Of a stretch of 64,000 bases of DNA, positions 50,228 to 64,000 are shown one piece after another. A program made the translations under genes and the position numbers. How positions within the stretch are numbered: position 1 is the stretch's first letter; each line of letters begins with the position of its first letter. Source of the DNA: Photobacterium atrarenae. GTDB taxonomy: Bacteria > Pseudomonadota > Gammaproteobacteria > Enterobacterales > Vibrionaceae. Below the pieces are notes generated by a model. The model did not search any database. It saw nothing but the letters and a program-made list of their open reading frames with translations, and was not told where the DNA came from. The DNA lies in NCBI RefSeq assembly GCF_024380015.1, contig NZ_CP101509.1, forward strand, positions 434,001 through 498,000, given 5' to 3'.

Positions 50228-53200
50228 TTATTTCACTTCAAGCAGTCTGCCGGTCAGGGCCGGGACGGTGATCGCCGTTTCCGGTGCCTGCGCGGTGATC
50301 ACCTCGCCGGTCATCAAATCCACCAGTTCAGTGGCAGGTTTCACCTGATCCATGTTCAGGTTCAGGGTCTGCGGCTCGGTTGAAACGTTCAGCACGTAGA
50401 CCACCTGCTGCTCGCCCAAGGTTTTCAGGTCGGCATACAGCACTTCGGATTGCGCCAGATTCCGGCGTTCGCCTTTGTACAATGCCGGATTGTCCGCGCG
50501 AACCGCCATCAACTGTGTCAGCCATTGCTTCAGATCGGCCTGCTCAGCGCTCAGCGTAATGTCCGTAACGCCGTCGACTTTGGCACTAGAGCGCGCGACA
50601 TGATCATCACACAGCCCCAGGTTGGCACAGTTCTCAGTCACTTTGGCGGCAAAATCCGGCACTTCATCACCAATCTCATCACCATAGTAAAAGGTGATCG
50701 GACCGGACCAGGCAGCCATAAAGCTGAACGCGGCCTTGTGGCGCTGGAAGTACTCGCCTTTGTCGCCCCGCTGGATCAGATCCCCGAAGCGAACCAGATC
50801 ATGGTTGCCCAGCATCAGGTTCGGCATCGCATGGTACGGGTAATTCGACATCGCATTCCAGAACGCATTCAGCTTGGTCGCATCCCCGGCCGCGCCGGAT
50901 TCCTCAACCGCCAGAGCCTGCACCAGACCGTAACGCAGCGGGAAGTGGAAGGCAGACGACAAGCCCGGCGCTTCATCCGTCCCGTAGGTGGTGCGGGTGA
51001 TCTCCTCAGCGCTGCTCCAGGTTTCCCCGACCAGATATCCCAAAGTGCCCCAGGATTTTCCGGCCGCTTTGTTCTGCGCGGCAGCCGCGTCGACCGCTGA
51101 GCGGATCTCACGCCACTGCGCCAACGGCAGTTGGTAGGCTTGATCCAGACGCCAGCCATCGATGCCGAATTCCTTGATCCAGTAAGTCGCGACTTCCTGG
51201 AAGAACTCAACACTATTACTGTCCGGATAGACCACCAACTGGCCCGGATAACCATCAGCACCGGCTTTCAGCGTCGGCAGTTTTCCGGTCGGGGACGGCT
51301 TCACACCGGTAATATTGGTGTGACCGAATACCCCGTCGAGGAAGACATACATGCCTTTGGCGTGCGCCTGATCAATCAGGGTTTTCAGCTGTGCCTTGGT
51401 GCCGAAATTCGGATCAACATTGAAGTAGTCACAGGCAAAATAACCGGTTGCATCGAGCTTGAGATCCCCGCCTTCACCGGCACAGGAATCAAACACCGGC
51501 GTCAGCCAGATCGCATTGACATTGAGGCTCCGGATGTAATCCAGGCTGTCGATAATGCCCTGCAGATCGCCGCGGTGGTGGGACGAGCCATAACCATCGG
51601 TGTAATCCGCCTGGGAGTCACCATCGACAAATGATTCCACCATGATCTGGTAGATCCGCAGATCACAGGCCGGATTTTCACCGCCGTAGCAGGCATAATC
51701 CTGCCCGGTAGGTTTCACCGTCAGTGCCGGCTGAGACGTCTCACTGGCATCGAGTTCGAACACCCAGACACCTTGCTCGGTCACGGTCACTTTGACGTTT
51801 TCGCCATCAACCTCGAAACTCACTGAACCATCACCTGCAGTCAGCTGCGCATAACCCAGGTTCACAGAACTCCAGTTTTCGCTGGCAATCTTGAACGTAT
51901 AAACACCCGGCTCGAAATAACGCTCCAGCTTGTATTTACCGTCGCCGATGTACTGCATGGCTTCATCGGCAGACCAACTGTTAAAGCTGCCGCGCACATA
52001 AACCACTTCGCTGCCGTACGGCGCTGGCACCACCGGCGCCAGGTTGCCGCCCAGCCCTTCGCCTTGCTTGCCTGCCTGCGGTTTCACGAACACCACTGCG
52101 GTCAGGCCGGGAATGGTAAAAGTACCCTCGCTAAAGCTGGCTTGGCCGATTTTGCTATCATCTGAGTTGGCCAGGACCGGATGCAGCTCAAAGCCACTGG
52201 TGCCGTCGATGGTGATCGACTGGGCGTTCAGGTTGGCATTCACCGCCACCACCAGCGCCTGATAATCGGCATCGAGATCGGTGCCAGCATCCACGCCGTC
52301 ATCCACACTCATGACAATCATCCCCGGCGCGGCATTCGGGCCGGTATTGTGGAAACGCACCCGGTTTAGAACTGCCTGTTCATCAATCAGTTTCAGCAAT
52401 GGCGTGCCAGCGCGGATCTGCAACAACTCCTTGAACCGGGCATCCGTCCAGGCGATTTCCTGCGGCCCTGCCACCGTGTTCGGGTTGGCAATGATCTGCT
52501 TGATGGCATCCCAGTTGGCCTGGTCTTTATCCGCTCGCGGCAGCCCGACATTCCAGTTGTTGGTTTGCTTGCTGAAATCAACCCGGTTCACCCAGTCGCC
52601 GGAATCATAGCTGTCCCGCGCCATCGATTTAGAACGCAACAGCTCAGAGCCCATATGCAGGAACGGGATCCCCTGCCCCAGCATCACCGGCGCCAGACCG
52701 ACAATCTGCATCCGCGCCCGATCTTCAACCGAGACATCAGCTGCCGCTTTATACTGGTTGAAGTCCCACAGGGTCTGGTTATCATGCTTGGAAACGTAGT
52801 TGATCGACTCCTGCGGATCCAGGGTATAGGCTGCGCCCTGATCGCCGTACTTGAAGTCGCGACCAGAAACCGTCATGCCGCTATAAGTCACCAGCGGATA
52901 GGATTGCAGGTTCCCCGCCATACCGTAACGGATCAGATCCATCCGCGACATCAGCGCCGCATCAAACCGATCTCCGGCGTTTGCAAAGCCCGGGGTCTGC
53001 AGCAGCGCATCGCCACTGTCGAACGGACCACCGCCGCGTACGCCGTCACGCAAACGGTCATTGTAGGTGCCGATCCCGGTCCCGGCCATCGGCCACTGGG
53101 CGGCGTTCTCGCCCCGGGTGCCATTGACAACTTCCCCGAAGTTCCAGCCTTCGCCGTAGAACCAGCTATCCGGATCGACTGATTTCACCGCGTCATAGAC

Positions 53201-56200
53201 TTTTTCCATGCTGGATTTCATCAGATGGCCCATCAGGTCAAAGCGGAAGCCATCAATTTTGTAATCCTGTGCCCACATCACCACGCTGTCGGCGACCAGC
53301 TTTTCGAACATCCGGTTCTCTGAAGCGGTGTTGTCACAACAGGTGGAGTTCTCTACCGTGCCACTTTCCGGGTTCAGGCGGTGGTAATAACCGGGAACGG
53401 TTTTATCCAGCACCGACTTGTCATACAGGCCCGACGAATACGTGTGGTTGTAGACCACATCCTGCACCACCCGGAAGCCCAGCTCGTGCAGCTTCTGGAT
53501 CATAGCGCGATACTCTTTAATCCGGGTAATGCCATCACTGGCAACGGCATAACTGCCTTCCGGCGCGCTGTAGTGGAACGGATCATAGCCCCAGTTGAAG
53601 CTGTCGAGCGGACGGATATCTGCCATCAGCGCCTGCGCCTGATCTGTTGCCGGATCGGTCTGCTCCAGGAGCTCCAGAATCGTGGTGGTGCGCGGCGTCC
53701 CATCCTGACACAAGTTGGCTTTTGGGTTCAATTCACACAGTTTGCCGACCGTATCGTTCAGATCGACCCGTTTTGCTTCATCTTCCGTAATCGAGGCCAG
53801 ATCGTAGCTTGGCAGCAAATGGACTGTGGTCAGCCCGGCTGCTTTCAATTGCTTGAGATGACTGACGCTGTCGCGATCTTCTTCGGTGAACGCCAGGTAC
53901 TTGCCGTCATACGCCGGCGTCCCTTTGCTGTCACTGGCACTGAAATCGCGAATATGAACTTCATAGACAATGTTATCCTCCGGGTTCGCCAGAGTCGGAA
54001 TTACCTGCTCATCCCATCCAGCCGGTTTTGTGGCCGGATCAGACAAATCCACCAACTGCGAATAGCGGCTGTCTGCACTGAGTGACAACGAGTATGGATC
54101 TGTGGTGCTCATCCACTCGATCTGGCCGGTTCTCGGATGATAGGCGTTAATCCGATAGCGGTAGAATACATGCTTGAGATCGGCCGTGCCGGTGTAGCGC
54201 CAGATCCCGGTCGCCGGGTCTTCCACCAATGCCAGCGGCGAACTCGCCAACGGTGTCTTATCCTCACCATAGAGATACAGCTCGACAACGGTGGCTGTCG
54301 GCGCCCACACCGCAAAATGGGCCTGACCGCCCTGTAGCCACGAGCCAAGCCGCGCCTCATCAGCATCCTGTACCCCTGCGGTATACAGCGCATCGACCAC
54401 CCCCGGGATCTGCACTTTGGTCGCCGCCAGGACTTTGTCGTTATCATCCAGCGCCACCGCAATCAGCTGCTGTTTCAGCAGGGCTTTGGCCTGCGCTGCA
54501 TCCACATCCAGCGTAAACCCGGTGCGGCCGGTCAGGTGCGGGAAGTCACCATGGTTGGTTGTACCAGCAAGCGTCAGGGGGAACTGCTCAAACTGCGCCG
54601 GTTGGTTAATATCGCCATTGCCTTCCGGTTTCGCCCAAAGCTCATAGCGCGCGGCCCCGCTCTGCTGATGCCAGGACAACTCATTGAGAGCCAGCCAATG
54701 GGCCGACGCACCGGAGAGCATCACCGGCACTTCGGTCACCGGCTCGTAATACAGGGTGCTGTTACCATCAAAGGTATAAATTTGGTTGCCTTTGGTGAGA
54801 TCCAGCTGTATATCGTTGCCACCCAGTGCTTTGGTATCCCCTTTATGGAGAATAAAGTTCAGGCAGCTGGCATGCTCGGCCTTCAGCGGCAGGCGATACA
54901 CAGCCCCGTATTCGCTGCTGATTTCAGAAAGCGGGAAAGGCGTCCCCCAGCTCACCCCGTCCAGGGCGCTGTCAGCAATGCTGTCACAGCTGGCGTTGTT
55001 CCATATATGGAGCCCCCAGCCTTCGTAGTTCCCGTCATCACGCTTGTAGTGGATCACCGCTTCGGTGTATTGCGGGGCTGGCTCATCGGTATCAGTGGTA
55101 TTGTTCGGGCTTTTCGGCTCCGGATCGATACTGTCCGGGATACCGTCGCCATCATCATCACTGGAAGCAAAATCCCCCAGACCGTCACCATTGGTATCCT
55201 GGCTTTCAAAGCGATCACGCGGGAACCGGTCCTGTTCGTTATTCGCCCCGTCACCGTCAACATCAATGTCCTCGATATCTGCGACCCTATCCCTATCCAG
55301 ATCAGCCGGAACTGCGGATGAATCCTGGCTATCAGTACCGAGTCGCGCTTCATCAGCATTCGACCAGCCATCGCCGTCAATATCCTCATCATCCGCGTCG
55401 GCGATCCTATCCCCATCAAGATCCGCCGGAGCGGACTTGGCGTCGTACGGGTCGGTGCCGAGGCGCAGCTCATCGGTATCGTTCCAGCCGTCACCGTCAT
55501 CGTCTAAATCCGCGTGATCGCCAATCTGATCCTGGTCGAAATCCGCACTTTCCAGCGGATCATTCGGGAATGCATCAATCTCATCAGCAACACCGTCGCC
55601 ATCACTATCGGTCGCCAGCACCGGTTTGCCACCGGCCCCCGGATGAAGCGTTTTCCCGTTCAAATTCGGTGTTTGATTATTCTTGCGCTGCTCAGCGATG
55701 GTCTTCCCTAAGGTTTCAGCCCCCTGAGACAAATTCTCCAAATGCTCGGCAACGCTGTTATCTCCCAGCTGTTCCGGCAGCAACTGCGCCAAAGCCCGAG
55801 CCGAGTCCGCCAACAGGGTATTTTTCTCCGCGATATAGTCCTGCTCAGGTGCCAGGTCAGGCAGTGCCAGCTCACTGCGCACGGCAGCCAATGCTTCTTC
55901 TGCTGTCGCCCCTTCTGCCATTTTCAAACCGATCAGTGTCGTGACCGGACTTATTTTCTGAGAACCCTCTGGTGCCATCATCAGGTAATCCCGGGTCACC
56001 GCAACTTCCGGATTATCTTCATCAATCGTCTGCCCTTTCAGCACCCGGGTCATCAGCGGATACTGTGCCGGATCGCCGTTAAACTCGCTCAGATCGAGTG
56101 TGGCTCTTCCCTGCTTCCCTGTCAGCGCCTGCGGCTCATTGGCATCTAATTTGAAATTGCGGTTCACATCCAGCCATACCTGCGCTTTTTGCAGATACCC

Positions 56201-56347
56201 GTCCATGGCCTGAACACTGAGTTCGGTTTGTACCCCGACATTCGGTTGCGGCACATCAGCATTGTTCTGCGTCGCATCATCGCCGCATCCCGCTAGTGCT
56301 CCCACCGACGCCAGCGCAACCGCCAGCTTGGTTAGATTTGTTTTCAT
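50228..56347 (-). CDS. Giant surface lipoprotein: pullulanase fused to alpha-amylase (two GH13 domains)
   Basis: A 2039-residue alpha-glucan hydrolase. The lipobox cysteine is residue 21 (ALAGC). Residues about 240-420 hold thrombospondin type 3-like calcium repeats (DxDGDG units). A CBM41-like starch-binding domain follows ([20 protein letters not shown]). The first GH13 module (about 790-1290) is of pullulanase type: nucleophile Asp in [10 protein letters not shown], acid Glu in GEGWNFGE, third Asp in [9 protein letters not shown]. A CBM20/48-like domain ([16 protein letters not shown], about 1449) leads to a second GH13 (about 1566-1990): [23 protein letters not shown]. Together they would cut alpha-1,6 and alpha-1,4 bonds of starch or glycogen outside the cell. 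ATG 56347 is preferred over 56440. Confidence 0.92.
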   Translation of the reverse strand: [2039 protein letters not shown]

Positions 56348-56828
56348 TGCTATCCCACTGATTGATTGAACATGATTCCGTGAACAAATCGAGGTGATTG
56401 CACGCCAAACCCAACCCACAACAACGGATGCCGCGCGCAAATCACCATTTCAAGAAGGGTAAATAAAACTGGGAATGACCCGCCTCACCCCGAACAGTGG
56501 CAGCGGGGGGAGGACACGGGAGGCGTAGAAACGAGCGCAATTGATAATCATCACACTTTGTTTGGACAAAGCATTATTTCACTTTCTTATCCGACTACAG
56601 AAAAGGGAGAAACATCACAATCGGCGTAAACTCATCGTCAGTTCATGAAAGTTAATGACATTTCTGTGACGATAGGAAGATTTAAAAAAATATGCTGAAA
56701 GTCACAGACTCAACGTAAATGAGCTGTCGTGCCCCCCTTCCAGACGAGACAAAGAGACCAAAGGACTCTCAGGAGCGGGAAGCAGATACAAATAAACCTT
56801 CATCTTGCGATGAAGGCTTCATGCAGTG
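56348..56828. other. Intergenic region upstream of the pullulanase
   Basis: No supported gene lies in these 480 bp. The part next to the pullulanase holds two oppositely oriented 9-mers of the form GGGGKGAGG (56484-56492 on the minus strand, 56506-56514 on the plus strand), similar to MalT boxes but lacking their central A. The rest is AT-rich and probably contains the promoter. Confidence 0.45.
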
Positions 56829-57289: not shown

Positions 57290-58150
57290 TCACACTTCAG
57301 CCGAGGTCTGAGACTGACTGGCCGCACGACAAACGTCAATCACCTCAGCGATCAGCGGATCACTTTCCCGGCCCGCTTTAAATGCCAGTCCAATCCGTTT
57401 GCTGAGATCGAGCGAAGCCACCTGCCGCAGGACAATCTCCCGCGCCTGACAAATCTCCTGCCAGTCCGGCAGTAGAGCCGCGCCCACCCCTGCCCCCACC
57501 AGTGGCCAAGCGTATTCGACAGTCCGGATATTTGCCCGGTGCTGTAGTTTCACCCCGGCTTCGGCCATCATCAGCTTGAGTTTTTCCAACGCATCACACG
57601 GGCTACGATGAATAAACGGCAGTCCGTCCAGCTCCTCCAGTGAGATCTGATTTTGCGCTGCCAACGGCCAGGAACGAGGCAGTGCTAACAGGTAATGATC
57701 ATTCCAGATCGGAACAAATGCTTCACTTTTCGTTGTCGATTGCGACAGAATGATCCTGGCATCACACGGCTCATCCGGATCCACCAGCGTCAGTTCCAGA
57801 TGCTCGATCTGATTGGTCAGCGCGGTCAGCAAACAACTCATGCGCTGGGCCCCCAACGATCGCATCAGCCCCAGCCTCAAGGGCACCGGTGCCGGACCTT
57901 CCCCAAACAAGTTCAGGATTTGCTGCTCGCCCGCACTCATATTTTTGGCCAGCGGATACAGCTTCTCGGCCGCTGCCGTCGGCAATACCCCGCGGGCGTG
58001 ACGAACAAATAAACTGGTCTCAAGAAGGTGCTCTAACTGCTTGATTGCCGCGGTAATCGAAGGTTGCGACACATAGCACTGGCGCGCCGCACCGCTGACA
58101 CTGCCCTGCTCGTAAACTGCCTGAAAATACTTTAACGCCCGCAATTCCAT
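57290..58150 (-). CDS. LysR-family regulator of the aminomutase operon
   Basis: A 286-residue regulator. The winged helix is MELRALKYFQAVYEQGSVSGAARQCYVSQPSITAAIKQLEHLL, and a substrate-binding-like domain follows. ATG 58150 gives the standard family start and is preferred over 58207. It diverges from the KamA-like gene with 190 bp between them, and a LysR-type dyad lies there, so it most likely controls that operon in response to a pathway amino acid. Confidence 0.9.
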   Translation of the reverse strand: MELRALKYFQAVYEQGSVSGAARQCYVSQPSITAAIKQLEHLLETSLFVRHARGVLPTAAAEKLYPLAKNMSAGEQQILNLFGEGPAPVPLRLGLMRSLGAQRMSCLLTALTNQIEHLELTLVDPDEPCDARIILSQSTTKSEAFVPIWNDHYLLALPRSWPLAAQNQISLEELDGLPFIHRSPCDALEKLKLMMAEAGVKLQHRANIRTVEYAWPLVGAGVGAALLPDWQEICQAREIVLRQVASLDLSKRIGLAFKAGRESDPLIAEVIDVCRAASQSQTSAEV

Positions 58151-58226
58151 TGCCGCTTCCCTGGTTGACCAAGCGAGCCGCCCTTGGGCTCCCGCGTTCC
58201 GAATCAATGATATTCGATTGTTGAGG

Positions 58227-58243
58227 TATAGCTCCTGCCTATA
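58227..58243. promoter_or_regulatory. LysR-type dyad upstream of the KamA-like gene
   Basis: TATAG-N7-CTATA is a perfect 5-7-5 dyad in the middle of the divergent promoter region, about 98 bp before the KamA-like start. This spacing is usual for the recognition site of LysR activators. Confidence 0.5.
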
Positions 58244-58340
58244 AGCAACATAAAAATAACATATTTCTCATCTCCGGCGAGCCTCTCTAAGGTAATAACC
58301 ATCACAAAAGTGAGGTAAATACCGAATACAGGATATAACG

Positions 58341-59948
58341 ATGAATATGCCAAACGCCGCTGAACAAATTGCCGTCACATTCCCTACGACAAACAAAAAA
58401 CATCTTGTGGTCACGTCAGATCATGTTGCTGAAGCCATGATTCGCCATGGCTATGACCAAGAAACATCTGCCATCATCCACAAAGAAAACCTGCTTCCGG
58501 CCGGACTGCTCAGTCGGCTGCATGCATCTTACCCGCAGCACTCCGGCCTGCTGGAAACACGTCCGATGCTTTTTACCGACAAAGCCCATTACACCGGACT
58601 ATCCGGCTTTCGGGAAGTTGTCAGCATTTTACTAAAAAATGGCATCAATATTGGCGATATTGAAGAAAGAGAGCTATTTGTCGAGGTTTATCGCTTTCTT
58701 GCCACCCGCCATACACTCAACAGCATCAACTGGGACGACTACGAAACCGATTCGGTGTTTCAGCTGGTATTCCCGCAGCCGGGGATGATCAACCCGGAAA
58801 CAACTCAAGCTTACTTACAGGCCGAAACCCGCGAGCAACGCACACAGGTTGCTGTGGAATATATGGAAAAAACCAACCCCCATGACGGCAACCAGCAACT
58901 GAACAAGCCCTGGTTTGAAAATGAGCAGGGGGACATTGAATTTCTCGACGGCAGTCAACACAAATACCCGCAATGCCAGCTGATCTTCGACAAAACAACG
59001 CAAAACTGCTTTTCATTTTGTACCTACTGTTTCCGCCATGCCCAGGTCCGCGGCGATGAAGATATGTTTATCCAGAAAGATATCCTGCAGATCCATCAGT
59101 ATCTGCGCCAGCACACGGAAGTCACCGATCTGCTGATCACTGGCGGTGACGGTGGCTATATGCCCGTGAGCCGGCTCCGCCAATATGTGATACCGCTCAT
59201 CGAAGACCCATCCTTGCTGCATGTGAAAAATGTCCGGCTGGCGACCCGCGCGCTGACTTTCCAGCCCGAGATGATCCTGAGCCACCAATACGATGTCATG
59301 CTTGAGCTGTTTGATACCCTACGCGACAACGGCATTCAACTGGCCTGGATGGCCCACTTCTCGACCCCGCGCGAGTTGCTCAACCCAACAACCATTGCCG
59401 CGATCCGCCGCCTGCAAAACCATGGGGTCACGATCCGCAGTCAAAGTCCGATGATGAACCACATCAGCCTGTTCACCAACGACCATGGTGACGTCGATAT
59501 TGAGCGCTCGGCACAAAACTGGATCGATCTGGCCAATATCCTCGGCATGCTGTCGGTCGGTTTTCACTCGATGTACTGTGCCCGCCCGACCGGCGAGCAC
59601 CATTACTACACCGCGCCACTGGCAGCGGTCGAGCAGATCTTCAACCGCATTTACCGCTCGCTGTCGTCGATCAACCGGCCATCGCGTCATATCTCGATGA
59701 CCATCTCGGCCGGTAAGTTGGCAATTCTCGGCACCTCGATCATCAACGGCGAGACATGTTTTGCCCTGAGGTTCACCGAAGCCCGCAACATGGCCTGGAT
59801 GGATCGGGTCTTCCACGCCAAATACGACGAATTGGAAAACAAGGTGGATTTCCTGACGCCCATTGACGGCGACAAATTCTTCTTTGAAGACGAACTGAAG
59901 GACATCGAAACCGAGCTGGCCGAAGCCATTCGTCAGCGACTGAGCTGA
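58341..59948 (+). CDS. KamA-family radical SAM amino-acid 2,3-aminomutase, extended form
   Basis: A 535-residue protein, over 100 residues longer than typical lysine 2,3-aminomutase because of an N-terminal extension. The radical SAM cluster motif CFSFCTYC has cysteines 223, 227 and 230. Lys459 in MTISAGKLAIL aligns by eye with the PLP lysine of lysine 2,3-aminomutase. The aspartate that binds the lysine side-chain amine there appears to be replaced in YCARPTGEHH (413-422), with an arginine next to it, so lysine is probably not the substrate. It should move an amino group from C2 to C3. The partners downstream fit use of the beta-amino acid product. Confidence 0.8.
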   Translation: MNMPNAAEQIAVTFPTTNKKHLVVTSDHVAEAMIRHGYDQETSAIIHKENLLPAGLLSRLHASYPQHSGLLETRPMLFTDKAHYTGLSGFREVVSILLKNGINIGDIEERELFVEVYRFLATRHTLNSINWDDYETDSVFQLVFPQPGMINPETTQAYLQAETREQRTQVAVEYMEKTNPHDGNQQLNKPWFENEQGDIEFLDGSQHKYPQCQLIFDKTTQNCFSFCTYCFRHAQVRGDEDMFIQKDILQIHQYLRQHTEVTDLLITGGDGGYMPVSRLRQYVIPLIEDPSLLHVKNVRLATRALTFQPEMILSHQYDVMLELFDTLRDNGIQLAWMAHFSTPRELLNPTTIAAIRRLQNHGVTIRSQSPMMNHISLFTNDHGDVDIERSAQNWIDLANILGMLSVGFHSMYCARPTGEHHYYTAPLAAVEQIFNRIYRSLSSINRPSRHISMTISAGKLAILGTSIINGETCFALRFTEARNMAWMDRVFHAKYDELENKVDFLTPIDGDKFFFEDELKDIETELAEAIRQRLS

Positions 59949-59972
59949 GATCTTTCCGACATCCACTTTCCG

Positions 59973-59997
59973 GGTCACCACAGCCGTTGTGGTGACC
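59973..59997. repeat. Intercistronic hairpin after the KamA-like gene
   Basis: GGTCACCACA and TGTGGTGACC form a perfect 10-bp stem with a 5-nt loop, 24 bp after the stop codon. Only a weak CTCTG follows, so partial termination or mRNA processing is more likely than a full stop before the CoA-transferase genes. Confidence 0.65.
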
Positions 59998-60038
59998 TCT
60001 GAACCTCACAGAGATACGTATCACAAGGTGTGACTGAC

Positions 60039-60749
60039 ATGATAAATAAACACTTTGACTCCCCCGCCCGGGCCGTCGCCGACATCTTCGACGGGGCGAC
60101 GGTGATGATCGGCGGCTTTGGCGAAGCGGGCAGCCCGATTGAGCTGATCCATGCACTGATCGACCGCGGGGCCCGCAACCTGACCGTGATCAACAACAAC
60201 ACCGGCAGCGGCCATGTCGGCCTGGCTGCGCTGATTGAAAACCGCCAGGTCGGCAAAATGATCTGCTCGTTTCCCCGCACCGCCAATTCCACCGTTTTTC
60301 CGGATTTATATCGCGCCGGTGAAATCGAGCTGGAGCTGGTCCCCCAGGGCACCCTGGCTGAGCGCATCCGGGCCGGCGGCGCCGGGATCCCTGCGTTCTA
60401 TACCGCCACCTCGGTCGGCACCCCACTGGCCGAAGGCAAAGAACACCGCGTGTTTCATCAGCGGGAATATGTGCTGGAAACCGGCCTGACCGCGGATTTT
60501 GCCCTGCTCAAGTGCCAACAGGCCGATCGCTACGGCAACCTGACTTACAACAAAACGGCACGCAACTTTGCCCCTATTATGGCAATGGCGTCCAACACCA
60601 CCATTGTGCAGACCAACGCCTCAGTCGAAGCCGGTGGGATCAACCCTGAAGTGATCGTTACCCCGGGTATTTTCGTCGACCGGATTGTGACCGTGTCTGC
60701 ACCCGCCCAGGAATCCCAACTTGTTGCCGAAGGGAGAAGCTACCCATGA
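60039..60749 (+). CDS. 3-oxoacid/3-oxoadipate CoA-transferase, subunit A
   Basis: A 236-residue subunit of family I CoA-transferases (PcaI/ScoA type). GATVMIGGFGEAGSPIELI is the conserved N-terminal glycine-rich segment. FPRTANSTVF, VPQGTLAERIRAGGAGIPAFYT and KCQQADRYGNLTY are diagnostic. ATG 60039 has AAGG 8 bp upstream; an in-frame GTG at 60030 is less likely. Its stop overlaps subunit B by 4 nt. It should activate a beta-keto acid with CoA from succinyl-CoA. Confidence 0.92.
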   Translation: MINKHFDSPARAVADIFDGATVMIGGFGEAGSPIELIHALIDRGARNLTVINNNTGSGHVGLAALIENRQVGKMICSFPRTANSTVFPDLYRAGEIELELVPQGTLAERIRAGGAGIPAFYTATSVGTPLAEGKEHRVFHQREYVLETGLTADFALLKCQQADRYGNLTYNKTARNFAPIMAMASNTTIVQTNASVEAGGINPEVIVTPGIFVDRIVTVSAPAQESQLVAEGRSYP

Positions 60750-61534
60750 CCCGCCAATCACAGCCACAATCTCAACCGCAATCCGCGCCAGCCCCCCGAG
60801 CCCACTCACCCGCGCCGGGCTGGAGCCGGGACCAGATGGCCCAGCGTGCGGCGCTGGACATTCCCGATGGCGCCTACGTGAACCTGGGGATTGGCATTCC
60901 GGAGCAGGTCGCCCGTTATGTCCCCGAAGGCCGTGAGGTGATCTATCACACCGAAAATGGCCTGCTGGGGATGGGTGATGCGCCAGCGCCCGGCGCGGAA
61001 GACAGCGAGCTGATCAACGCCGGTAAAAAGCCGGTCACGGCGATCCCCGGTGCTGCGTATTTTCACCACGCCGACAGCTTCGCGATGATCCGCGGCCACC
61101 ATATCGATATTTGCGTACTGGGCGCGATGCAAATCTCCCAGTCCGGCGATCTGGCCAACTGGTCTACCGGGGCAGCCGACGCCATTCCGGCGGTCGGTGG
61201 TGCCATGGATTTAGTTGCCGGGGTCAAAACCATTTATGTCATCACCCAACACACCACCAAAACCGGTGAGCCCAAACTGGTAGAACACTGCACCTACCCA
61301 CTGACCGGGCGTCAGGTGGTCGATCGCATCTATACCGATTTGGCGGTGATTGCCGTGACGCCTGAAGGCTTCGAGGTATTAGAGCTGGCCCCCGGGATAT
61401 CATTTGAAGATGTGCGGCAACGCACGAGCGGCACCGTCTTTCTCAGTGAGCAACTGAACCAAGCAACAAAGCAGGCGACAGACACCGCAATAAAGATCAC
61501 CGACCCCGACTCCGCAGACTACGCCCTGAAGTGA
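60746..61534 (+). CDS. 3-oxoacid/3-oxoadipate CoA-transferase, subunit B
   Basis: A 262-residue subunit (PcaJ/ScoB type). The first 25 residues are an unusual Gln/Pro/Ser-rich tail not normal for the family. NLGIGIPEQVARYVPEG leads to the catalytic Glu70 in HTENGLLGMG, which forms the thioester intermediate. GAMQISQSGDLANW and the closing PGISFEDVRQRT are typical. Translationally coupled to subunit A (ATGA). Confidence 0.93.
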   Translation: MTRQSQPQSQPQSAPAPRAHSPAPGWSRDQMAQRAALDIPDGAYVNLGIGIPEQVARYVPEGREVIYHTENGLLGMGDAPAPGAEDSELINAGKKPVTAIPGAAYFHHADSFAMIRGHHIDICVLGAMQISQSGDLANWSTGAADAIPAVGGAMDLVAGVKTIYVITQHTTKTGEPKLVEHCTYPLTGRQVVDRIYTDLAVIAVTPEGFEVLELAPGISFEDVRQRTSGTVFLSEQLNQATKQATDTAIKITDPDSADYALK

Positions 61535-61546
61535 GCAGAAACTAAG

Positions 61547-62899
61547 ATGAAACAACAAACGCCAATTTCTTCGTCGCCAGCTGCACAACGCAGCGCGGCA
61601 CTGTACCAGAAAGCACTCCAGTTCATGCCCGGCGGCTGTAGCCGAAACACCGTGCTGCGCCAGCCGCACCCGCTCTATGCCGACGCAGGCCGGGGCTGTT
61701 ACGTCACCGATATAGATGGCATGCAGCGGATCGATTTTGCCAACAACATGGCCGCACTGATCCACGGCCACGCTCATCCGCAGGTTGTCGCAGCCGTCAC
61801 CGAGCAGCTCCATAAGGGCACGGCATTTACTCTGGCGACTGAAGTAGAAATTGATTTTGCCGAGCACCTGTGCAGCCGCAATCCCGGCTTCAAGAACATT
61901 CGCTTCGTCAATTCTGGTACCGAAGCCATCATGAGCTGCCTCAAGGCCGCCCGCGCTTTTACCGGACGCCCGAAAATTGCCAAAGTCGAAGGCGCCTATC
62001 ACGGCCTGTATGATTTTGCCGAAGTCAGCCAGACCGCCAAACCGGAGAACTGGGGCAGTCCTGATCACCCGGCGAGCGTGCCGGTCGCTCACGGTACGCC
62101 CCCTACCACCTTGAATGATGTCATCGTGATCCCGTTCAACGATCCTGAAACCGCCATCGCCATCCTGGATCAGCACGCCGACGAGCTGGCCTGTGTGCTG
62201 GTCGATCCGATGCCGCACCGGGTCGGGCTGATCCCGGCCTCGGAGTCCTTTATCACCGCCCTGAGCAACTGGACCCGCAATCACGGCGCGCTGCTGGTGT
62301 TCGATGAAGTGATCACCTTTCGCACCCGGTACGGCGGCGCACAGGAGCGCTATGCGGTTCAGCCGGATCTGACCGCGATGGGCAAGATGATTGGCGGCGG
62401 CTTTCCGGTCGGTGCCCTGGCCGGACGCCGGGACGTCATGGAAGTAATGAATCCCCGGGCGAATCAACTGCTGTTCCCACACTCGGGGACCTTTTCGGCT
62501 AACCCGATCACCATGACCGCTGGGCTGACCGCAATGCAGCTGTTCGACCGTGATGCCGTGAGCCAACTCAATGCCCTGAGCGATCAGCTTCGCGGACAAA
62601 TCACCGAAGCCATCCAGCTGGCCGATGTTCCGGTCTGTGTTACGGGCGAAGGCTCGATGTTCCGCATCCATATGAAGCCAACGCCGCCGACGGATTACCG
62701 CTCAGCTTACGAGACGCCGCAGGAAGCCCGGATCAAGTCCGCCCTGCTGGATCACCTGTTCAACCATGGATTCATGATGATCAATACCTGTTCGGGGACT
62801 CTCTCAACTGCCATGACTGAGAAAGAAATCAGCGCTTTCAGTGAGGTCCTGTTGAACGGCTTCCGCACCGTGAAGCCGCTTTTTGATGAATCAGCCTGA
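61547..62899 (+). CDS. Class III aminotransferase, beta-amino-acid type
   Basis: A 450-residue PLP enzyme of the glutamate-1-semialdehyde-aminomutase-like group. MPGGCSRNTVLRQPHPLYADAG, VNSGTEAIMSCLKAARAFTGR and the PLP lysine 280 in GKMIGGGFPVG are seen. Known beta-phenylalanine aminotransferases are of this subgroup and share the same blocks (from memory). In this operon it would turn a beta-amino acid into the beta-keto acid that the CoA-transferase activates. It starts 12 bp after subunit B. Confidence 0.85.
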   Translation: MKQQTPISSSPAAQRSAALYQKALQFMPGGCSRNTVLRQPHPLYADAGRGCYVTDIDGMQRIDFANNMAALIHGHAHPQVVAAVTEQLHKGTAFTLATEVEIDFAEHLCSRNPGFKNIRFVNSGTEAIMSCLKAARAFTGRPKIAKVEGAYHGLYDFAEVSQTAKPENWGSPDHPASVPVAHGTPPTTLNDVIVIPFNDPETAIAILDQHADELACVLVDPMPHRVGLIPASESFITALSNWTRNHGALLVFDEVITFRTRYGGAQERYAVQPDLTAMGKMIGGGFPVGALAGRRDVMEVMNPRANQLLFPHSGTFSANPITMTAGLTAMQLFDRDAVSQLNALSDQLRGQITEAIQLADVPVCVTGEGSMFRIHMKPTPPTDYRSAYETPQEARIKSALLDHLFNHGFMMINTCSGTLSTAMTEKEISAFSEVLLNGFRTVKPLFDESA

Positions 62900-62952
62900 T
62901 ACATGAACCTGATGAATGCGCTTGATGGCTTGGTTTTTTTGAAGGATTGAGC

Positions 62953-62968
62953 GTTTCATGCATGAAAC
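62953..62968. promoter_or_regulatory. Perfect 16-bp palindrome before the thiolase gene
   Basis: GTTTCATGCATGAAAC is fully self-complementary and lies 19 bp before the thiolase start, in the only gap of the operon after the CoA-transferase. It looks like an operator; a compact mRNA hairpin is less likely because there is no loop. Confidence 0.45.
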
Positions 62969-62986
62969 AAGAAAGGAATTTAAGTG

Positions 62987-64000
62987 ATGAATGACGTTTA
63001 TCTGTGCGATGCGGTACGAACCCCCATCGGCCGCTACGGCGGGGCGCTGGCTTCGGTGCGGGTCGATGATCTGGCGGCGCTGCCCATCAAAGCGTTAATG
63101 GCGCGCAACCCGGAAGTAAACTGGCAGCAAGTCGATGATGTATTGCTCGGCTGTGCCAACCAATCCGGCGAAGACAACCGCAATGTGGCAAGAATGGCGA
63201 CCCTGATCGCCGGACTGCCGATCGAGGTTCCCGGCGCGACCATCAATCGGCTGTGCGGCTCCGGTCTCAACGCGATCGGCGATGCCGCCCGCGCCATTCG
63301 ATCCGGCGAGACCGATTTAATCATCGCCGGCGGCATTGAGAGCATGTCCCGCGCGCCGTTCGTCATACCCAAGGCCACCAGCGCCTTTGCCCGCTCGGCA
63401 GAGCTGTACGATACCACCATGGGCTGGCGGTTTATCAATCCCGAATTTGACCGGCAGTTCGGCACCGAAACCATGCCAAAAACCGCTGAAAACCTGGCGG
63501 CTGAGTTTGGGATCAGCCGCGCCGATCAGGACAAGTTTGCCGTCAGCAGCCAACTCAAAGCCGCCACCGCCCAGGAAGACGGACGGCTGGCTGAAGAGAT
63601 CATCGCCGTCACCCTGGCCAACAAAAAAGGACCGCCGACCATTGTCGATCAGGATGAGCACCTGCGCGCTACCAGCTTCGACAAACTCAGCCAGCTCAAG
63701 CCCCTGTTTGAAGGCGGCACCATCACCGCCGGCAATGCCTCAGGGATCAACGATGGCGCCGCCGCCCTGCTACTGGCCTCTGCCGCCGGACTGAAGCAAC
63801 ACAACCTGACGCCCCGAGCCAGAATCCTGGGAATGGCCGTCGCTGGTGTTCCGCCGCGCATCATGGGGCTCGGGCCGGTACCGGCCACCCAAAAACTGCT
63901 GAGCCAACTCAACATGACCCTGAGTGATTTTGACCTGTTGGAATTTAATGAGGCGTTCGCGGCCCAGGCGCTCACCTGTACCCGCCAGCTCGGCCTGGCG
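62987..64000 (+). CDS. 3-oxoadipyl-CoA/acetyl-CoA thiolase (PcaF-like), runs off the window
   Basis: 338 residues are visible, of about 400 expected. The start [22 protein letters not shown] and the strings [29 protein letters not shown] and [17 protein letters not shown] resemble beta-ketoadipyl-CoA thiolases more than ordinary acetoacetyl-CoA thiolases (from memory). The nucleophile is Cys90 in [10 protein letters not shown]; the NEAFA histidine-region motif is present, while the final cysteine lies beyond the edge. AAAGGA precedes the ATG. It would cleave a beta-ketoacyl-CoA to acetyl-CoA and a shorter acyl-CoA. Confidence 0.9.

Follow-up and report, generated by a model that had tools for sequence, protein, structure and literature searches.

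Bacteria that degrade lysine by way of 2-aminoadipate, through saccharopine or through the AmaA/AmaB pipecolate route, are known to dispose of this intermediate via 2-oxoadipate and then via either glutaryl-coenzyme A (CoA) or 2-hydroxyglutarate. Here we describe a cluster of five genes for which a different exit is predicted, one that runs through 3-aminoadipate and 3-oxoadipate instead. The cluster lies in a stretch of 64,000 nucleotides from Photobacterium atrarenae (contig NZ_CP101509.1, positions 434,001 to 498,000; hereafter the window), part of the second contig in a genome of 5.4 Mb, and the cluster encodes a radical S-adenosylmethionine (SAM) protein, the two subunits of a CoA-transferase, a class-III aminotransferase and a thiolase. 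An original prediction, made from the letters of the window, had placed an operon of these genes here under a divergent LysR-family regulator, and all of them are indeed present. We consider it probable that the five genes form a catabolic pathway leading from 2-aminoadipate to succinyl-CoA and acetyl-CoA. Somewhat more guardedly, we favour a wider proposal, namely an undescribed branch of lysine degradation that would employ the first radical SAM 2-aminoadipate 2,3-aminomutase, 3-aminoadipate and the reactions of the lower beta-ketoadipate pathway, that would take lysine to succinate and acetyl-CoA without 2-oxoadipate dehydrogenase, glutaryl-CoA dehydrogenase or O2, and that would be widespread among anaerobic and facultatively anaerobic bacteria of the sea and of sediments.

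Several described systems resemble parts of this module. Lysine 2,3-aminomutase (KamA/AblA; structure 2a5h) shares with the radical SAM protein its fold, the CxxxCxxC motif and the positions of a pyridoxal 5′-phosphate (PLP) lysine and an alpha-carboxylate arginine, both in presumed roles, but the window protein is only about 20% identical to it, has both lysine-side-chain aspartates replaced and falls below the KamA cut-offs. Glutamate 2,3-aminomutase (TIGR04368), which we take to be the Clostridioides difficile enzyme with a lysine at the side-chain site, is predicted to be alike in having a basic residue there, an arginine in the window protein; we know of no genes for the thiolysis of a beta-keto acid that accompany it. 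The lower beta-ketoadipate pathway (PcaIJ, PcaF) uses the same families of CoA-transferase and thiolase, and the same last two reactions are predicted for the module, but that pathway is fed from aromatic rings, whereas an amino-acid feed is predicted here. The kamA-yodPQRST genes of Bacillus subtilis presumably encode an aminomutase, CoA-transferase subunits, a class-III aminotransferase, an acetyltransferase and a deacylase, with no thiolase; the first three functions are common to the module, which has a thiolase in place of the acetyltransferase and the deacylase. According to one paper, which also deals with YodT, KamA of B. subtilis is a lysine 2,3-aminomutase made only during sporulation, with an undetermined physiological role, and kamA with yodT is the nearest published gene set found (PMC6522883). 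Another describes a variant of lysine fermentation where Kat, a HemL-like class-III aminotransferase, acts at a beta-amino position, on 3-aminobutyryl-CoA, and where the Kat gene of one genome stands beside an acetoacetyl-CoA thiolase gene (PMC3149608). The module shares the HemL-like aminotransferase with this variant, which differs by running through lysine 2,3- and 5,6-aminomutases. The literature searched, with most subscription journals outside its scope, held no description of a route via 3-aminoadipate or of an aminoadipate aminomutase; the accessible parts of PMC9309667, PMC10298789, PMC2842291 and PMC9854754 contain nothing on such a route, the last of them using the term solely in the title of a reference.

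Proposed pathway and conservation of the module

What we observe, namely which genes are present and in what order, how they are conserved and linked, how they score against family models and which fold the radical SAM protein matches, suggests a newly ordered chain of known enzyme families, in which the aminomutase would act on a new substrate; every reaction and substrate of this chain is our inference. With SAM and PLP, the radical SAM protein would shift the amino group of 2-aminoadipate from C2 to C3, yielding 3-aminoadipate, and the class-III aminotransferase would hand this amino group to a 2-oxo acid, leaving 3-oxoadipate. The CoA-transferase would move CoA from succinyl-CoA to 3-oxoadipate, and the thiolase, with CoA, would split the resulting 3-oxoadipyl-CoA into succinyl-CoA and acetyl-CoA, restoring the CoA donor of the preceding step. 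The net outcome would be the entry of 2-aminoadipate as succinate plus acetyl-CoA, without 2-oxoadipate or glutaryl-CoA dehydrogenase. Where the module is linked to lysine genes, 2-aminoadipate would derive from lysine through piperideine-6-carboxylate/aminoadipate semialdehyde.

If true, the scheme would add an exit for 2-aminoadipate and an O2-independent route from lysine to the tricarboxylic acid (TCA) cycle in many environmental bacteria, extend the radical SAM aminomutases to a new substrate, and join lysine breakdown to the beta-ketoadipate pathway. An enzyme that forms 3-aminoadipate may also serve the production of bio-based adipic acid, for which one paper names as the obstacle the lack of enzymes deaminating 2-aminoadipate, lysine or beta-lysine (PMC7241714).

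The five genes all lie on the + strand within 5.8 kb, those for the CoA-transferase subunits overlapping by 4 bases. A search with an alignment of three Photobacterium radical SAM sequences retrieved 58 further loci, which fall under about 10 phylum labels, many of them in metagenome-assembled genomes (MAGs), and whose gene content was read by tblastn. The same five genes, in the same order and on one strand, occupy 5.4-5.8 kb in 37 of these loci, which excludes a chance arrangement and bears out the linkage across related genomes that the original prediction requires. Eight more loci start in the same way and then reach a contig end. The 13 that differ are locus L070, described below, and 12 loci of Colwelliaceae with a radical SAM gene and no other module gene beside it; in three of the latter (L063, L066 and L091) the thiolase gene is found 6.5-9 kb away, accompanied in two cases by the aminotransferase gene, and a thiolase 62-65% identical is encoded elsewhere in all six Colwelliaceae genomes tested. 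Within the genus, a full-length radical SAM gene occurs in three of the 36 genomes searched, that of P. atrarenae included (G000, G026 and G032). Loci L078 and L084, with no full open reading frame (ORF) called, are absent from the protein set, neither of the two trees built includes L031, which shares its contig with L034, and the second also omits L046, L064, L065, L068 and L089.

The radical SAM protein and its companion enzymes

The radical SAM protein (58341..59948, + strand; 535 residues) is a predicted 2-aminoadipate 2,3-aminomutase. Its CxxxCxxC [4Fe-4S]/SAM motif, with Cys223, Cys227 and Cys230 (59007..59030, +), is invariant in the 32 sequences aligned. By alignment with lysine 2,3-aminomutase, Arg232 and Lys459 (59715..59717, +; invariant in the same 32 sequences) are kept: the former falls in the column of what we take to be the alpha-carboxylate-binding arginine, and the latter in that of Lys337, presumably the PLP lysine, so that a PLP role is predicted for it here. 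The two aspartates presumed to bind lysine, Asp293, which would hold its side chain, and Asp330, are replaced by Arg415 (59583..59585, +; also invariant in the 32 sequences) and by Ser452 (59694..59696, +; Thr in some relatives), respectively.

On family models the protein stays below every KamA-type curated cut-off examined, with 68.5 bits on TIGR00238 (KamA family; cut-off 199.2), 57.3 on TIGR03820 (lysine 2,3-aminomutase; 525.4) and 49.6 on TIGR04368 (650), and a Pfam search returned no family at E 0.001. Its structure model finds its best match, by a wide margin, in lysine 2,3-aminomutase, over residues 72-485, in a comparison made through Foldseek, where folds that Foldseek missed cannot appear; a profile search of solved structures with the radical SAM family gave 2a5h as its only match. 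The KamA-type label of the original prediction holds for the modelled fold, which is that of lysine 2,3-aminomutase, and gives way at the level of sequence, where the kinship with KamA is no more than remote. At least 1514 homologues were found at E 1e-30 or better, and the 120 that were listed go by the names 'hypothetical protein', 'lysine 2,3-aminomutase' and, once, 'Radical SAM protein'. Among 31 module genomes, no glutamate 2,3-aminomutase member, sought for a comparison of the presumed basic residue at the side-chain site, scored above the cut-off.

Other branches of the family were seen in passing. Genome G057 encodes a distant homologue of 511 residues that lacks the CxxxCxxC motif (L033 9445-10980), perhaps a non-radical offshoot, and a closer one (L032 10014-11438; 38-41% identical) that has the cluster motif, lies in another gene setting and carries Asp in place of Pro416, next to the arginine. 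A second KamA-type group in Cloacimonadota (L117 1495-2619 in G099 and L118 1507-2622 in G101) combines Arg where the lysine side chain would be held with Lys at the PLP position, making it another candidate for an acidic amino acid.

The thiolase gene (62984..64000, +, within the window) is complete at 64186, past the window end (L009 8984-10186 in the surrounding contig). The full protein reaches 674.4 bits on the pcaF equivalog TIGR02430 (cut-off 597), the only one of its genome above that cut-off, and its best solved relative is the beta-ketoadipyl-CoA thiolase 6pca, in agreement with the PcaF resemblance first proposed; it is a predicted 3-oxoadipyl-CoA thiolase, which would carry out the thiolysis of that ester. 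The CoA-transferase subunits A (60030..60749, +; PcaI/ScoA family; start GTG, alternatively ATG at 60039) and B (60746..61534, +; PcaJ/ScoB family) both score above cut-off on the models for 3-oxoacid CoA-transferases, with 338 bits on TIGR02429 (128.5) and 302.2 on TIGR02428 (243.55), models that do not separate PcaIJ from ScoAB; among the matches listed, the solved relatives of the two subunits go by the names of succinyl-CoA:3-ketoacid or acetate CoA-transferase. The class-III aminotransferase (61547..62899, +; PF00202), whose predicted substrate is 3-aminoadipate or its CoA ester, has as nearest structures the omega-transaminase 6k8h (44% identical) and ForI (37%), followed by the beta-selective 2yku/2ykx and, at a short distance from 2ykx, by HemL structures. 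Among NCBIfam models those of HemL type score best, below their cut-offs, and the structure model, with a mean pLDDT of only 71, gives matches at the family level. The protein resembles both beta-transaminases and glutamate-1-semialdehyde aminomutases; the beta-amino-acid type first assigned to it agrees with the former likeness, and the latter keeps this assignment from being decisive.

Source of the substrate and competing explanations

Genes of the kind that lead from lysine to 2-aminoadipate adjoin the module in five of the 58 loci, in varied settings. L049 has a piperideine-6-carboxylate dehydrogenase (807.6 on NF050084, cut-off 730) and, on the other strand, an AmaA-like (pipecolate-oxidase-like) protein (458.6, below its cut-off of 600). 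In L052 the dehydrogenase (803.7) stands just upstream of the module and a saccharopine-dehydrogenase-type gene just downstream, and in L057 the end of a dehydrogenase gene (partial, 85% identical to that of L052) and a saccharopine-type gene precede the module. L070 shows a row of radical SAM, aminotransferase, dehydrogenase (817.5) and saccharopine-type genes, with neither CoA-transferase nor thiolase on the stretch examined. L081 has upstream a saccharopine dehydrogenase gene and an AlaDH/PNT-type gene, which we read as lysine-ketoglutarate reductase (LKR)-like, and downstream a further saccharopine-type gene. This neighbourhood, the pcaF score and the Arg/Ser pair at the lysine site all favour 2-aminoadipate, the substrate preferred from the start.

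The five lysine-linked loci occupy three separate places in the tree; at least three changes in the linkage are needed, possibly a gain each time, possibly a single gain followed by two losses. The group of L049, L052 and L057 is the sister (95/92) of the gammaproteobacterial clade to which the window belongs, and L070 and L081 lie outside both. The window thus has lysine-linked relatives on either side, and their radical SAM proteins share 62-71% identity with its own. Three of 15 dehydrogenases lie within 5 kb of a module (p = 2.8e-5, treating the kindred L049 and L052 as independent; 1.6e-3 for two of 15), binomial figures that assume random placement in 2.5 Mb and that do not include L057, with its partial gene, or L081, with other genes. 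The dehydrogenase exceeds its cut-off in 14 of 50 module genomes (a count that leaves out L048, L059, L064, L065, L067, L078, L089 and L091 of the 58) and in one of 14 control genomes. Four of the 12 dehydrogenases away from the module, among which the one in G079 is below the cut-off, stand with other genes of the lysine seed set: LKR-like and saccharopine dehydrogenase genes in G094 and G090, an LKR-like gene at a contig end in G105 and a saccharopine-type gene in G078.

An aromatic origin of 3-oxoadipate was considered and rejected. The intradiol dioxygenase domain occurs in seven of 52 module genomes (the set of 50 with G026 in place of the genome of L034, plus G000 and G032, used for the saccharopine searches as well); the other 45 lack it, so 3-oxoadipate does not usually arise there by ring cleavage of the intradiol type. 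The single intradiol dioxygenase of P. atrarenae is a lone ORF of 201 residues with a twin-arginine-like start, and no pca gene was recognised by eye among the ORFs of at least 150 residues listed around it.

A number of observations weigh against 2-aminoadipate as the substrate, or against lysine as its source. The main weakness lies in the genome of P. atrarenae, where no enzyme recognisable as a producer of 2-aminoadipate turned up in our searches: there is no piperideine-6-carboxylate dehydrogenase above the cut-off (best 292 of 730), no lysine 6-aminotransferase above its own (141 of 520.8) and no LodA, which occurs in three of 24 gammaproteobacterial module genomes. The single saccharopine-type match adjoins a putative norspermidine gene set, as we take its neighbours to be, and, with lysine 6-aminotransferase and LodA, saccharopine dehydrogenase was set aside as a source, none being found as such. 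This species may import 2-aminoadipate, use one of its approximately 20 aldehyde dehydrogenase matches, or act on another substrate. No close blastp match to lysine genes was found in the gammaproteobacterial flanks examined, where only aldehyde dehydrogenases 20-25% identical appeared, at three Shewanella loci. More widely, 36 of the 50 module genomes lack the dehydrogenase above its cut-off, eight of the 12 dehydrogenases away from the module have no other gene of the lysine seed set beside them, and all five lysine-linked loci come from MAGs, three of them close kin. In six of 60 relatives the dehydrogenase is above its cut-off, and all six are without a radical SAM homologue of full length, so the module does not invariably accompany lysine use. 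No thiolase was detected at E 1e-110 in seven of 15 genomes with a split or cut module, including G091, which holds L070. Finally, Arg415 was tried as a unique marker and rejected, since two distant homologues share Arg there and the residue is hence not diagnostic.

The same chain could start from glutamate, passing through 3-aminoglutarate (beta-glutamate), 3-oxoglutarate and 3-oxoglutaryl-CoA to acetyl-CoA and malonyl-CoA, an unlikely course in our judgement. Glutamate is available in every cell and would solve the missing source in P. atrarenae, a described KamA relative acts on it, and Arg415, a basic residue at the site of the side chain, is compatible with any acidic amino acid, but the radical SAM protein falls far short of the glutamate 2,3-aminomutase cut-off, the thiolase is of the 3-oxoadipyl-CoA type, the neighbours in the five lysine-linked loci point to 2-aminoadipate, and glutamate, as is generally known, already enters the TCA cycle in one step. 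Rather improbable, too, is another order of the reactions on 2-aminoadipate, with the CoA-transferase acting first to give 3-aminoadipyl-CoA and the aminotransferase working on the CoA ester, so that free 3-oxoadipate would never form. Free beta-keto acids are generally known to decarboxylate easily, and the window aminotransferase is HemL-like, as is Kat, which acts on 3-aminobutyryl-CoA, a beta-aminoacyl-CoA (PMC3149608). Membership of the CoA-transferase in the 3-oxoacid family speaks for the free acid, as does L070, where the radical SAM, aminotransferase and lysine genes stand together and neither CoA-transferase nor thiolase was found.

We regard as very improbable a lysine 2,3-aminomutase pathway like that of the B. 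subtilis kamA-yod operon, from lysine to beta-lysine followed by transamination and CoA-dependent cleavage. The nearest solved structure is indeed that of lysine 2,3-aminomutase, and automatic annotation calls several of the listed homologues L-lysine 2,3-aminomutase, but both of the presumed lysine-binding aspartates are replaced and a separate lysine 2,3-aminomutase above the cut-off is present in five of the 29 module genomes searched; lysine was rejected as the leading substrate on the model scores and the replaced aspartates. Least probable of all, by a little, would be a radical SAM protein that is no aminomutase and performs some other radical rearrangement, with the remaining genes serving a 3-oxoacid of unrelated origin. 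Its distance from every characterised KamA member would allow for this, and no assay of a family member was found in the literature searched; the strict linkage to the aminotransferase, the conserved positions of the presumed PLP lysine and alpha-carboxylate arginine and the extent of the match to lysine 2,3-aminomutase argue instead for an aminomutase, which we predict to act on 2-aminoadipate.

Regulator and neighbouring genes

The regulator gene (57290..58150, - strand), divergent from the operon, encodes a LysR-family protein with PF00126 and PF03466 above cut-off; its ORF spans 57290-58207, and the ATG at 58150, matching a relative, is the probable start. An orthologue with 58-97% identity occupies the same position in the gammaproteobacterial loci, and we infer that the LysR protein regulates the operon. 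A scan of the operon for promoters and terminators gave about as many sites as shuffled sequence, and in a plasmid search a single short match (77%) appeared, between a Shinella record and part of the gene for subunit A of the CoA-transferase.

Judged by eye, the operon is followed by a TetR-like gene (L009 10630-11247, -) and then by a FabF-like beta-ketoacyl synthase gene (L009 11324-12622, +); G032 has genes of equal lengths to this pair at the same place after the operon. Elsewhere in the window, an ORF of 2070 residues (50228-56440, -) has the look of an amylase of the pullulanase type that carries calcium-binding repeats. In 11 loci (L034, L035, L045 and L056 among them), members of a single protein cluster are found at most four genes away from the module; judged by eye they resemble methyl-accepting chemoreceptors, and they might sense the substrate of the module.

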